Assembly (NCBI GenBank): GCA_003649565.1
Contig: QMSF01000011.1
Span: 1 to 11,218, forward strand
Direction of reading: 5' to 3'
DNA length: 11,218 nt
DNA from: Thermoprotei archaeon
GTDB taxonomy: Archaea > Thermoproteota > Methanomethylicia > Nezhaarchaeales > WYZ-LMO8
Shown: positions 429 through 9,192 of the stretch, piece after piece
Layout of the letters: each line of letters begins with the position of its first letter
Position numbering within the stretch: the stretch's first letter is position 1
The notes under the pieces: model-generated
What the model saw: only the letters and a program-made list of their open reading frames with translations
Told to the model about the DNA's origin: nothing
Databases searched by the model: none
Position numbers and translations under genes: made by a program

Positions 429-1455
429 TGCTGACTGTTGTTGTAGGAGGCTTCTTCGGGGATGAGGGAAAGGCGTTAGCCCCCTAGAAGGTAAAATCTG
501 TGGTTACTTGGCATTAAAGGATGATGTAAAAGTCGCAGTTAGGACAGGATCGGTCAATGCAGGCCATACAGTTGTTTACAATAACAGAGAGTACAAATTG
601 AGAATGATACCTTGTAGCTTCATAAATCCCCATACTACTCTTTGCATTGCCGCTGGAGCAAACATAAGGATTGACGTTTTAATGAGCGAATTAGAGCTGA
701 CAGGGACTAGCGATAGGCTGAAAGTTGATCCTCAAGCATCTATTATTGAAGAAAAACACGTGAAGAGAGAAAGAGAAAATCAACATTTAATGTCTAGGAT
801 AGGTTCTACAGGTCAAGGAGTTGGAGCAGCAATAGAAGATAGAGTGAGAAGAATCGCTAAACTAGCTCGTGACGTAGAAGAGCTACGTAACTACTTAGAC
901 GATGTGCTGGCTATTGTTTGCAACGCATTAGACCATGACCATAACGTATTGCTTGAAGGTACGCAAGGATATTATCTATCGTTGTACCATGGCACTTATC
1001 CTTATGTTACGAGCAGGGATACCACTGCATCAGCAGTGTGCAGCGAAGTTGGCATAGGACCTAAAATGGTCGATGAGGTCATAGTGGTCTTTAAATCGTA
1101 TGTCACGAGAGTTGGCGAAGGACCATTACCTGGCGAGCTGCCTGAAGAAGAAGCCGAAAAGTTGGGGCTTGTTGAAGTGGCTACCGTAACTGGTAGGAGG
1201 AGAAGAGTGGCATTCTTTAATTACGATCTTGCTAAAAAGGCTGTAATAGCTAATAGTGCAACTCAAGTAGCATTAACAAGGATAGATACCCTATTTCCTA
1301 ATGCATCAAGAACCAGGAGATACGAAGATCTACCGCGTGAAGCTAAAGAATTCATAGAGAACATTGAAAACAATCTAAAAGTCCCTGTAACCATTGTAAG
1401 TACTGGGCCGGATGTCTTTGACACTATAGACCTTAGAGGTATTAAAGGACTGTAA
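428..1455 (+). CDS. purA: Adenylosuccinate synthetase, interrupted by a 17-base putative BHB intron; coding = join(428..470,488..1455)
   Basis: PurA joins IMP and aspartate using GTP to give adenylosuccinate, the committed step to AMP. Read straight, the ATG at 428 gives only 19 codons before TAG (485-487). The rest of the enzyme, from YLALKDD onward, is open in a different frame. Removing bases 471-487 fuses the two into 336 residues, the usual length of short archaeal PurA. It restores GDEGKGKI (residues 11-18; D12 is the catalytic Asp) and places His41 in NAGHTV where E. coli has its catalytic His41. Other family motifs are GSTGQGVG, EGTQG, SRDTTAS, YVTRVGEG, SATQVALTRID and the C-terminal STGPD. 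The ATG overlaps the upstream stop by one base. A G-run at 415-419 could serve as a weak ribosome site. The 3' end overlaps glmS by 14 bases. Family is certain; expression through splicing is inferred. Confidence 0.93.
471..487 (+). other. Putative bulge-helix-bulge (BHB) intron in purA pre-mRNA
   Basis: Seen in sequence: bases 465-468 (AGGG) pair perfectly with 482-485 (CCCU). The 3-nt bulges are 469-471 (AAA) and 486-488 (AGA). An inner stem of 472-474 (GGC) with 479-481 (GCC) is closed by a GUUA loop (475-478). This is the 3-4-3 core cut by archaeal tRNA-splicing endonuclease, which cleaves after the second bulge base. Cuts at 470|471 and 487|488 remove 17 bases and give GGA AAA GGT AAA, encoding G-K-G-K. 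Four cut registers could restore this protein sequence, and only this one gives a paired central helix. Its last three bases are an in-frame TAG, so unspliced mRNA yields a 19-residue peptide. The outer exon helix is weak (G464/A489 do not pair), so the motif would be of relaxed type. Confidence 0.8.
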
Positions 1456-7089: not shown

Positions 7090-9192
7090 TTATTGATACA
7101 TCTTTTCTAATTGTTTAGCACGCTCTTCACGGTAACTTTTTAGAATCTCTATGAGCTTCTCTTTGATTTTTTGGTCTCTCTCAGAAAGGAGTTTCTCCCG
7201 CTGTTCCCTTATTTGATGCTCAATCGACGAGCTCGTATAGAGGAAATCAAGAACCCTTTCTATCTTGACTTCCTCAGAATCAATTATCGGTATACATTTT
7301 TCCCTGAGCATAGTGGAGATGTTGGCTGGTATTTTAGCTAATGAAGTTATTATTGCTTTAGGCTCTATGTTAAGTAAGTAATGTAAGCCTTCAATATTCG
7401 AAGAGCTAGGATCACGGACGAATACTATGTCCCCTTTTTGTAGAGGCCCATACTTCATAGCTTCTTCAATCGATCTCTTAGTGATGGAGCGTATTTCTTT
7501 GATTATTACGATATCTCCTTTAATTACATCCTTTATTAATTTCTTCAGTTGTTCAACGAGATGCTCTAAGTCTTCAACTTTCGCTTTTAATTCACTTATT
7601 ATCTTCACGGAATGTTCAAGTTTTTGCTTCAAAAGGCTTTCTTCTTTTTCCTGAAGAGGCTGAGCTTTTAGGGGTGCTTTCATTAGAGCTTCTTCAAGTT
7701 CTTCAACTTTTGCTTCCTTTTCTTTGAGCATTTTAAGAAGCGTGAGACGTGACTCTTCAAGGTCTTTTATTATCTTATTTTGTTCTTCAACTTTATCTCT
7801 AAGCTTGGAAAGTTCTTGTTTTAGTCTTTGAACTTCGGGATCTACGTGATGAGTCATGGCTGAATGCATGGTATTCTTGTTGTCTTTTAGTAACACCTTG
7901 TCCAAGGCCTCCTTTATCGTGAGGCCTTTAATGAGTAAAGCCTTGGCTTTCTCTATTTGAGGATATGACAAGTTAAGTTCTTTAGCTTTTGCTTCAAGTT
8001 GCATAAATTTGCTCTTAAAGTTTAAGTATGCCTTTAATGCTGCAGCAAGGGCGTCCCGTTGATGCGCATTTTTTATTATGTCTTTGAAATTACTTATGTG
8101 ATCTTGTATTATGTGTCTTTTCTCCTCAATAGTCATATCTCTAGGTGGTGTGTAGATTTCACAACCTAGGAGAGATGCCATTTTCTCTATGATGGCTGGT
8201 GCACGTCTAACGTCTGAGGCTATTATTATGGGTTTTCCAAATTTAGTCAGAATCTTTGTTATTGTCATTTTATCTAAGGCTAGGCCGCTGCTGACAAATA
8301 GAGGATTACCATTTAGATCTAATATTGCCAGACCTGTCACTATTCCAGGATCTAAGCCGACTATGAGCGGCTTATCGGTGTGACTTGTTCCGCTTGCATG
8401 CGATTCCTCAAGGCTGGGAATTCTAGTCAACAGCTTTATGTTAACACCGCTCTTCTTGATTATTTCATTTAGAGGCTTTATCCACTTTTTAACTTGTGAG
8501 GAAGGACAATTGAGAAGGAGAATGCTTCTTTCAAGCCCATACTTAGATTTTTGAACGTAGTACTCTATTTCATCATCGCTCCTGTGTTTTTTCAGTTCGT
8601 CAAGGAGCATGTTCGTTATTTGTCTTATAGCTGAGCGTTGTGATCTACTGTATCTCCCCTGGCTCATGCCTCCTGAACCGAAGCTTCTTCCTCTCGACAC
8701 TATTATTACGGTCCTTATGCTTGAAGGTTCTATTATGGTAGTCCCCACGCCTTTTAAAGCTAGTAAGGCTGATGCTTCAGCGGCCTGTAAAGGTGGTAAA
8801 TGCGATTTTCTCTCGCTTACTACACCTTCTTTGAATGCTAGTTCAGTTAATTTCACGTAACGTTCTTCATCACATTTAGTTACTTCAACTAATCTTATCT
8901 TGTCGATATGCTTGCCAAGTCTTTTTTTGACTTCATTTATGGAACCGCCTAATTCATATAGGTTATCCACAGCTAGAGTATCCACATGATACTTCCTGAT
9001 GAGGCGAGATACTGTCTCCCAATCAACGCCTTCTCTACGATCTATTACCGCACCCTTATCATTAATTATGACTAGTGCATATTCTTGCATATGACGTTGT
9101 GATGGCATTAAATCCAAGCCCATTACTATTCTTTGTTTACTAACTGCCTCATGAAGAGCCAAATAGCCCCTTACCCCGTTGCTTCTTATCAC
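7090..9192 (-). CDS. DUF460 / COG2433 protein: apparently two RNase-H-like domains plus long coiled coil
   Basis: A 700-residue archaeal protein of unproven function. Residues 21-150 look like an RNase-H-like fold (RIVMGLDLMPSQ with D26, TLAVDN with D76, E139 in QAAEASALLAL). A basic Gly/Ser/Arg loop (RGRSFGSGGMSQGRYSRSQR, 167-186) follows. Residues 275-395 form the RuvC/YqgF-like DUF460 core: IVGLDPGIVTG (D281), IIASDVRR (D327), NAHQRDALAAALKAY (D380). After it come a linker and a long coiled coil (about 450-560), then a C-terminal alpha/beta domain (560-650) and a charged helical tail. The three acids per RNase-H-like domain suggest metal-dependent nuclease or nucleic-acid binding. GTG start is uncertain: a TATA-like TTTAATTAAA lies only 4 bases upstream, so the TTG at codon 11 is an alternative. 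It follows rio2 after 33 bases. Confidence 0.9.
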   Translation of the reverse strand: MIRSNGVRGYLALHEAVSKQRIVMGLDLMPSQRHMQEYALVIINDKGAVIDRREGVDWETVSRLIRKYHVDTLAVDNLYELGGSINEVKKRLGKHIDKIRLVEVTKCDEERYVKLTELAFKEGVVSERKSHLPPLQAAEASALLALKGVGTTIIEPSSIRTVIIVSRGRSFGSGGMSQGRYSRSQRSAIRQITNMLLDELKKHRSDDEIEYYVQKSKYGLERSILLLNCPSSQVKKWIKPLNEIIKKSGVNIKLLTRIPSLEESHASGTSHTDKPLIVGLDPGIVTGLAILDLNGNPLFVSSGLALDKMTITKILTKFGKPIIIASDVRRAPAIIEKMASLLGCEIYTPPRDMTIEEKRHIIQDHISNFKDIIKNAHQRDALAAALKAYLNFKSKFMQLEAKAKELNLSYPQIEKAKALLIKGLTIKEALDKVLLKDNKNTMHSAMTHHVDPEVQRLKQELSKLRDKVEEQNKIIKDLEESRLTLLKMLKEKEAKVEELEEALMKAPLKAQPLQEKEESLLKQKLEHSVKIISELKAKVEDLEHLVEQLKKLIKDVIKGDIVIIKEIRSITKRSIEEAMKYGPLQKGDIVFVRDPSSSNIEGLHYLLNIEPKAIITSLAKIPANISTMLREKCIPIIDSEEVKIERVLDFLYTSSSIEHQIREQREKLLSERDQKIKEKLIEILKSYREERAKQLEKMYQ

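Follow-up and report, generated by a model that had tools for sequence, protein, structure and literature searches.

The window analysed here is the whole 11,218-nt stretch of contig QMSF01000011.1 from a Thermoprotei archaeon (assembly GCA_003649565.1). It carries a purA gene, for adenylosuccinate synthetase, in which the reading frame is broken by a short insert with the features of an archaeal bulge-helix-bulge (BHB) intron. The gene begins at ATG 428 on the forward strand; its frame reads MLTVVVGGFFGDEGKALAP (GDEGKA...) and then reaches TAG at 485-487, and the downstream frame, GKICGYLALKDD, is open up to a stop codon ending at 1455. Deletion of 471-487 restores GDEGKGKICGY and gives a PurA product of 336 amino acids. 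GDEGKGK is the motif which we take to be the catalytic nucleotide-binding loop of PurA. The features are listed below, the counts referring to 29 interrupted purA genes of which the window's is one.

428-470, + strand: purA exon 1, encoding MLTVVVGGFFGDEG and the first base of the Lys codon; kept as protein upstream of the frame break
465-468, + strand: 5' strand AGGG of the central helix H, within exon 1; pairs in 29 of 29
469-471, + strand: 5' bulge AAA, with the predicted cut at 470^471; AAA in 29 of 29
471-487, + strand: putative 17-nt intron AGGCGTTAGCCCCCTAG; 28 other genomes have an insert at this codon
472-474, + strand: 5' strand GGC of the inner helix h'; its three end pairs show complementarity in all 29 genes and vary by compensation
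475-478, + strand: GTTA loop, which differs among relatives
479-481, + strand: 3' strand GCC of the inner helix h'; complementary in 29 of 29
482-485, + strand: 3' strand CCCT of the central helix H, within the intron; pairs in 29 of 29
485-487, + strand: TAG stop codon reached by the unspliced purA frame, from translation of that frame
486-488, + strand: 3' bulge AGA, with the predicted cut at 487^488; AGA in 19, AAA in 9 and ATA in 1 of the 29
488-1455, + strand: purA exon 2 including the stop codon; Pfam Adenylsucc_synt on 508-1452 (E 5.3e-68)

Translated across the deletion, the window PurA aligns with an intact archaeal PurA (catalogue protein P0022) over 331 residues, gap-free and with 65% identity. 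This bears out the proposal of an earlier, sequence-only reading of the locus that removal of 17 bases restores both the frame and GDEGKGK; the positions which it gave for the AGGG, AAA, GGC, GTTA, GCC, CCCT and AGA segments (465-488) are right to the base. Since bases 471 and 488 are both A, deletion of 472-488 would yield an identical mRNA; the sequence by itself leaves two cut positions, one base apart, of which the BHB motif rule selects 471-487.

The search for relatives drew on DNA from genome collections and on searches of whole genomes, including surveys of 398 genomes. A pattern written for the Nezhaarchaeota type of intron matched 26 places in 23 of the 398, 10 of which are purA introns; one other (L137) was inspected and is not purA, and the remaining 15 non-purA places were taken as chance. 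As this pattern misses the Methanomethylicales type, the survey was redone by protein search, which gave PurA matches in 320 of the 398 genomes; the lineages with an interrupted purA come from among the matches listed, and there may be further ones. Loci agreeing in the first 300 nt of exon 2 were merged into one for counting. Two loci missed by the search expression (L017 and G212) were added individually, and two genomes which carry the intron (G025 and G321) were added after a check of fragments.

The resulting 29 genes, the window's included, carry inserts of 15-30 nt, always at the same codon, with 28 distinct intron sequences; the intron of G025 is identical to the 28-nt one of Methanosuratincola subterraneus (L076). 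Six of the genes are from Nezhaarchaeota (one under the label Methanomethylicota), 16 are from others in the class of G001 (those with a name go under Methanomethylicales, Methanomethylicota or kin), five are from the Brockarchaeota-like class of G006 (including one labelled Bathyarchaeota and one labelled Thaumarchaeota), and two are from the order of G212. Counting PurA-positive genomes, the class of G001 has the intron in 21 of 31, the class of G006 in 5 of 11 and the order of G212 in 2 of 5; in the remaining three genomes of that order the PurA matches are uninterrupted at the intron site. Three genomes with flagged or extra-length PurA matches (G306, G387 and G285) were checked and have an uninterrupted purA, and in G097 the PurA matches are only distant and split. 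Viral contigs scanned for PurA gave 22 stretches, with no relative among them.

A lone 17-nt frameshift resembles an indel, and the named examples are metagenome assemblies, so that an assembly error, a sequencing error or a decaying pseudogene has to be weighed. The same codon is affected in 29 genes with 28 different introns, which argues against all three. Furthermore, exon 1 is under purifying selection: the 12 codons before the Lys codon show 68 synonymous versus 5 non-synonymous differences among the six Nezhaarchaeota genes (summed over pairs), and 1,671 versus 668 across 27 sequences, the set of genes that was also used for shuffling and folding. Genomes in the class of G001 have one PurA match each, apart from two contig-end pieces in the intronless G018; thus no intact second copy was seen there. 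We regard error or decay as very improbable, the least likely of the explanations considered.

GDEGKGK is absent from all 20 of the nearest catalogue proteins (P0002-P0021, 77-99% identical), some of which are short, uninformative pieces, and the first intact PurA in the ranking is P0022, at 64%. Several of the 20 start in the wrong frame, running GPLKGKICAYL, and gene predictions begin at TTG 508 (window numbering) or in the wrong frame. Such starts would suit ribosomal frameshifting, or an internal restart yielding a PurA that lacks the loop. For GDEGKGK to be made, 15-30 nt must be omitted, more than a one- or two-base slip achieves, and read-through would place extra residues or a stop within the loop. 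A restart would lose the loop, yet exon 1 is maintained by purifying selection. Neither route strikes us as credible beyond a very slight chance.

The structure test required that a cut which restores Lys and the flanking codons fall behind base 2 of both bulges, each of 3 nt, on either side of a 4-bp helix. All 29 sequences have the 4-bp exon-intron helix, the two 3-nt bulges and a frame-restoring cut at the motif position; where frame-restoring cuts are possible at shifted positions, these have at most three helix pairs (26 sequences). The first pair of the central helix is A-U in 11 sequences, G-C in 15 and G-U in 3. Pairs 2-4 are G-C in all 29 and, being invariant, are uninformative on compensation. 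Inner pairs 1, 2 and 3 occur as GC/AU, as GC/CG/AU/UA and as CG/UA/UG/GU/AU, respectively, with no broken pair in the 29, although in the 15-nt intron of L048 the third would close a 2-nt loop and is hence doubtful. The comparison of purA among relatives that the sequence-only reading had proposed thus gave the insert at the same codon in 28 others together with compensatory pair changes, and its interpretation as a BHB intron is supported by motif-defined cuts that restore Lys in 29 of 29.

When the intron letters were permuted with the exons held fixed, the 4-bp helix arose in 2,497 of 52,000 shuffles of 26 introns (~5%), and the helix with three inner pairs in 126 of 52,000 (0.24%). For the 17 nt of the window, the frame-restoring 4/4 helix was obtained in 497 of 20,000 shuffles and the helix with three inner pairs in 31 of 20,000; the agreement across species is far stronger than these window statistics. 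The helix is visible in codon usage as well. GAG-GGA or GAG-GGG precedes the cut in all 29 interrupted genes, because the central helix demands those letters, versus 17 of 62 intact purA genes (the search expression missed one of the 62).

A ribosomal hop would likewise restore the frame, and a conserved hairpin adjoining a coding gap resembles the arrangement in phage T4 gene 60. In such programmed translational bypassing the ribosome would halt at the Lys codon, skip the hairpin and land, just ahead of GGN, on a codon that matches. Take-off would be from AAA or AAG, and the landing codon is AGA, GAA, GAG or ATA in 19 of 26 sequences (GAA in the window) and AAA or AAG in only 7 of 26, so that take-off and landing codons do not match as bypassing requires. 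The parts that stay constant, the exon-intron helix and the 3-nt bulges, are not needed for a hop. Moreover, the same genomes hold a cbf5 gene split at a site whose splicing appears in partial cDNAs of other archaea, according to the available part of PMC2738675. Bypassing is in our estimation very unlikely, if a little less so than the other alternatives.

We read 471-487 as an archaeal BHB intron in the purA pre-mRNA, with the motif relaxed to HBh', with a probability of roughly 0.94, and consider that the tRNA-splicing machinery very probably cuts it out. In the purA transcript the exon AGGG would pair with the intron CCCU; an archaeal tRNA-splicing endonuclease, most likely of the (alpha-beta)2 type, would cut between bases 2 and 3 of both 3-nt bulges; the exons would be joined by the tRNA ligase RtcB to give the Lys codon AAA of the GDEGKGK loop; and translation of the spliced mRNA would produce full-length adenylosuccinate synthetase. 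The sequence, the restored frame, conservation, pair compensation, selection on exon 1 and the presence of the enzymes in relatives are what the data show; cleavage, ligation and translation of the spliced mRNA we infer. Splicing predicts the pattern found in the relatives, namely one shared codon for inserts that range from 15 to 30 nt, a hairpin that is conserved although its inner sequence is free, and cuts that restore Lys, and it accounts for every case by a single rule.

Two splicing-endonuclease genes were found in seven of nine genomes of relatives (G001 and G004-G009), which include four of the six intron-bearing ones; G002 and G003 each have a single gene, and G007-G009 have two genes and an intact purA. 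We infer alpha and beta subunits from two PF01974 matches of different strength. RtcB is present in 13 of 15 genomes.

A number of observations weigh against splicing. The outer helix is present in 0 of 29 sequences, the first outer position being always unpaired, so that none has the strict hBHBh' motif and the purA motif is the relaxed HBh' form; an enzyme requiring the strict motif might fail to cut it. The sequence-only reading had spoken of a weak outer helix and a relaxed motif, which is right and was, if anything, understated. Of the 24 introns with a fourth inner pair, 7 show a break there. The fold which that reading drew held up in part: in RNAfold a local 36-nt piece of the window adopts the BHB-type structure as described (-9.5 kcal/mol), but once flanks of 12 or 30 nt are added the central helix is predicted with a probability of 0.01 at 37 °C; at 65 °C the values are 0.09 and 0.04, respectively, and other helices prevail in the longer folds. 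Among the 27 sequences this probability exceeds 0.5 in only 13-19, depending on flank and temperature, and the folding energy of the window, taken alone, shows no advantage over shuffled sequence (z +0.61, -0.72 and -0.98). For the window itself the case is weakest in this RNAfold result; the folding model leaves out the enzyme. With respect to the machinery, G002 lacks both the alpha subunit and RtcB, and G006 lacks RtcB, which we have taken as gaps in metagenome assemblies. The endonuclease and RtcB surveys cover genomes of relatives, and the endonuclease of the window's own organism lies outside them.

A PurA tree was built by a quick method from 88 rows, 26 with the intron and 62 intact, and without L126 (which is short), G025 and G321. 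The window PurA falls in a six-row Nezhaarchaeota clade with a Shimodaira-Hasegawa-like approximate likelihood ratio test (SH-aLRT) support of 100, its nearest row being 82% identical. Mapped on the tree, the intron trait takes six changes, at least five of which are forced by starred branches; the purA intron thus appears to have come or gone on five or more occasions at almost one position. In G018 (L124, around 1530, - strand) an uninterrupted GDEGKGK (GAGGGGAAGGG) lies inside an 11-row clade (support 98) whose other ten rows bear the intron. This looks like a candidate for exact intron loss, which may have come about via spliced mRNA or gene replacement. The Lys codon is split after base 1 (A|AA) in 11 genes, those of Nezhaarchaeota and the class of G006, and after base 2 (AA|A) in 18, those of Methanomethylicales and the order of G212. 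The two positions suggest that the splice site either slid by one base or was hit independently more than once.

Elsewhere in the window, positions 7093-9192 on the - strand encode a 700-amino acid protein with a DUF460 domain, between genes for AdoMet synthetase and RIO2 kinase.

The 1.02-Mb contig of the Nezhaarchaeota genome G002 was scanned for further BHB-type introns, which gave 138 raw candidates; the best 45 by inner helix were judged by eye. The scan recovered purA and gave putative introns in four other genes (slashes in the motifs mark the intron site).

L210 18948-18975 (G002:C1 858948-858975), - strand: rps5 (uS5), BHB-type intron inside Q[KR]QTD/AGE..SRFK; also in L268, L274, L277 and L278
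L217 17666-17687 (G002:C1 997666-997687), + strand: hypD, BHB-type intron inside MHVCG/THEW; also in L289-L292
L211 19429-19459 (G002:C1 879429-879459), - strand: mtnA/IF-2B family gene, 31-nt BHB-type intron inside LTHC/NAGALATVGYG; other mtnA loci considered, L307-L309
L191 19620-19641 (G002:C1 479620-479641), - strand: cbf5, split within GTL/DPKVTG; other cbf5 loci considered, L240, L249, L250, L252, L254 and L255

Pfam matches span the junctions of rps5, hypD, mtnA and cbf5; in purA the best stretch starts downstream of the junction. Candidates in uL22, in ugd and at the trpF/trpB boundary of G002 were rejected on reading the DNA. The rps5 gene is interrupted in all five Nezhaarchaeota genomes searched, by introns of 22-30 nt, and is uninterrupted at the intron site in the 10 other genomes searched; three of the five have ACGG:CCGU as exon-intron helix and the other two ACAG:CUGU, so that the change is compensated. 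All five Nezhaarchaeota genomes also have an interrupted hypD (20-23 nt), and each intron fits the BHB rule with a hairpin that varies; among the 10 other genomes searched, G109 has one stop in hypD and G008 gave a fragment of it. In mtnA the split is seen in G002, there is one in-frame TAG in each of G001, G042 and G043, and G003 gave no match.

Of 21 genomes, 15 have a cbf5 gene that is split near residue 70, and every one of the five Nezhaarchaeota is among these; the six unsplit genes are of the Methanomethylicales type, with a single match each, and two of them contain one TGA. The cut in G002 divides the Asp codon of GTLDPKVTG, presumably that of the catalytic residue hit by the published cbf5 intron. 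These splits lie well outside Desulfurococcales and Sulfolobales, in which that intron was described. At least five genes are therefore interrupted in one Nezhaarchaeota genome: purA, rps5, hypD, mtnA and cbf5. We lean towards the view that mRNA splicing by tRNA-splicing enzymes is a routine and conserved layer of gene expression in these uncultured archaea, with introns placed in highly conserved codons.

The closest known system is cbf5, for which the available part of PMC2738675 gives pre-mRNA introns of 16-44 bp and spliced partial cDNAs in Desulfurococcales and Sulfolobales; there too the intron breaks the codon of a catalytic residue, as in purA, and shows lineage-specific gain and loss. 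The purA intron differs in the gene concerned and in its lineages (Nezhaarchaeota, Methanomethylicales, the Brockarchaeota-like class and the order of G212), and it is known from DNA only. Unconventional motifs are usual among cbf5 introns (same source), and therefore the missing outer helix does not exclude purA from the BHB pre-mRNA introns. The pre-tRNA introns of HBh' form likewise lack one part of the strict hBHBh' motif, and (alpha-beta)2 and epsilon2 endonucleases excise relaxed-motif pre-tRNA introns with high efficiency, as stated in the accessible text of PMC6379350; unlike them, purA has its intron in coding sequence, so that the exon side of the helix has to encode Glu-Gly as well. 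BHB sites in one Haloferax 5' untranslated region are also mRNA substrates of an archaeal splicing endonuclease (accessible part of PMC7714728), but no reading frame is restored by removal from an untranslated region. Putative 12-bp introns of the rudivirus SIRV1 are, as those in purA, very short inserts in archaeal coding genes (PMC2738675, available part); their splicing is undemonstrated and function is possible without removal, whereas purA is a cellular gene with a structured hairpin and a broken frame.

That same accessible part of PMC7714728, a 2020 paper, gives cbf5 as the one other BHB intron on record for archaea, next to its own Haloferax sites, and the view that an intron in purA is unusual holds as far as the literature covered here goes. 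The companion view that so small an intron is unusual must be given up, as 17 nt lies within the ranges given for cbf5 introns (16-44 bp) and for tRNA introns of archaea (11-175 nt) in the available part of PMC2738675. Our literature search, with most subscription papers outside its scope and rps5, hypD and mtnA not searched by name, found no report of a purA intron or of introns in Nezhaarchaeota. The purA intron is thus of a known kind, the BHB pre-mRNA intron of cbf5, in a new gene.

Introns in archaeal mRNA have been treated so far as a curiosity of one gene, cbf5; purA adds a central metabolic enzyme and several lineages, and here the gene of an essential purine-making enzyme is interrupted within its active-site codons. 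The gene predictions covered here truncate or misread the interrupted genes, which leads to false N-termini in the protein databases of these archaea. The genus Methanosuratincola, where the intron was seen in M. subterraneus, has an isolate (Methanosuratincola petrocarbonis LWZ-6, JCM 39528; available part of PMC12244365), so the purA intron is testable in a genus with an isolate. Natural gain and loss at the purA site, together with its sliding by one base, inform how such introns arise. If splicing is indeed a routine layer in these archaea, ribosomal-protein and nucleotide-synthesis targets would let it set growth-related output.
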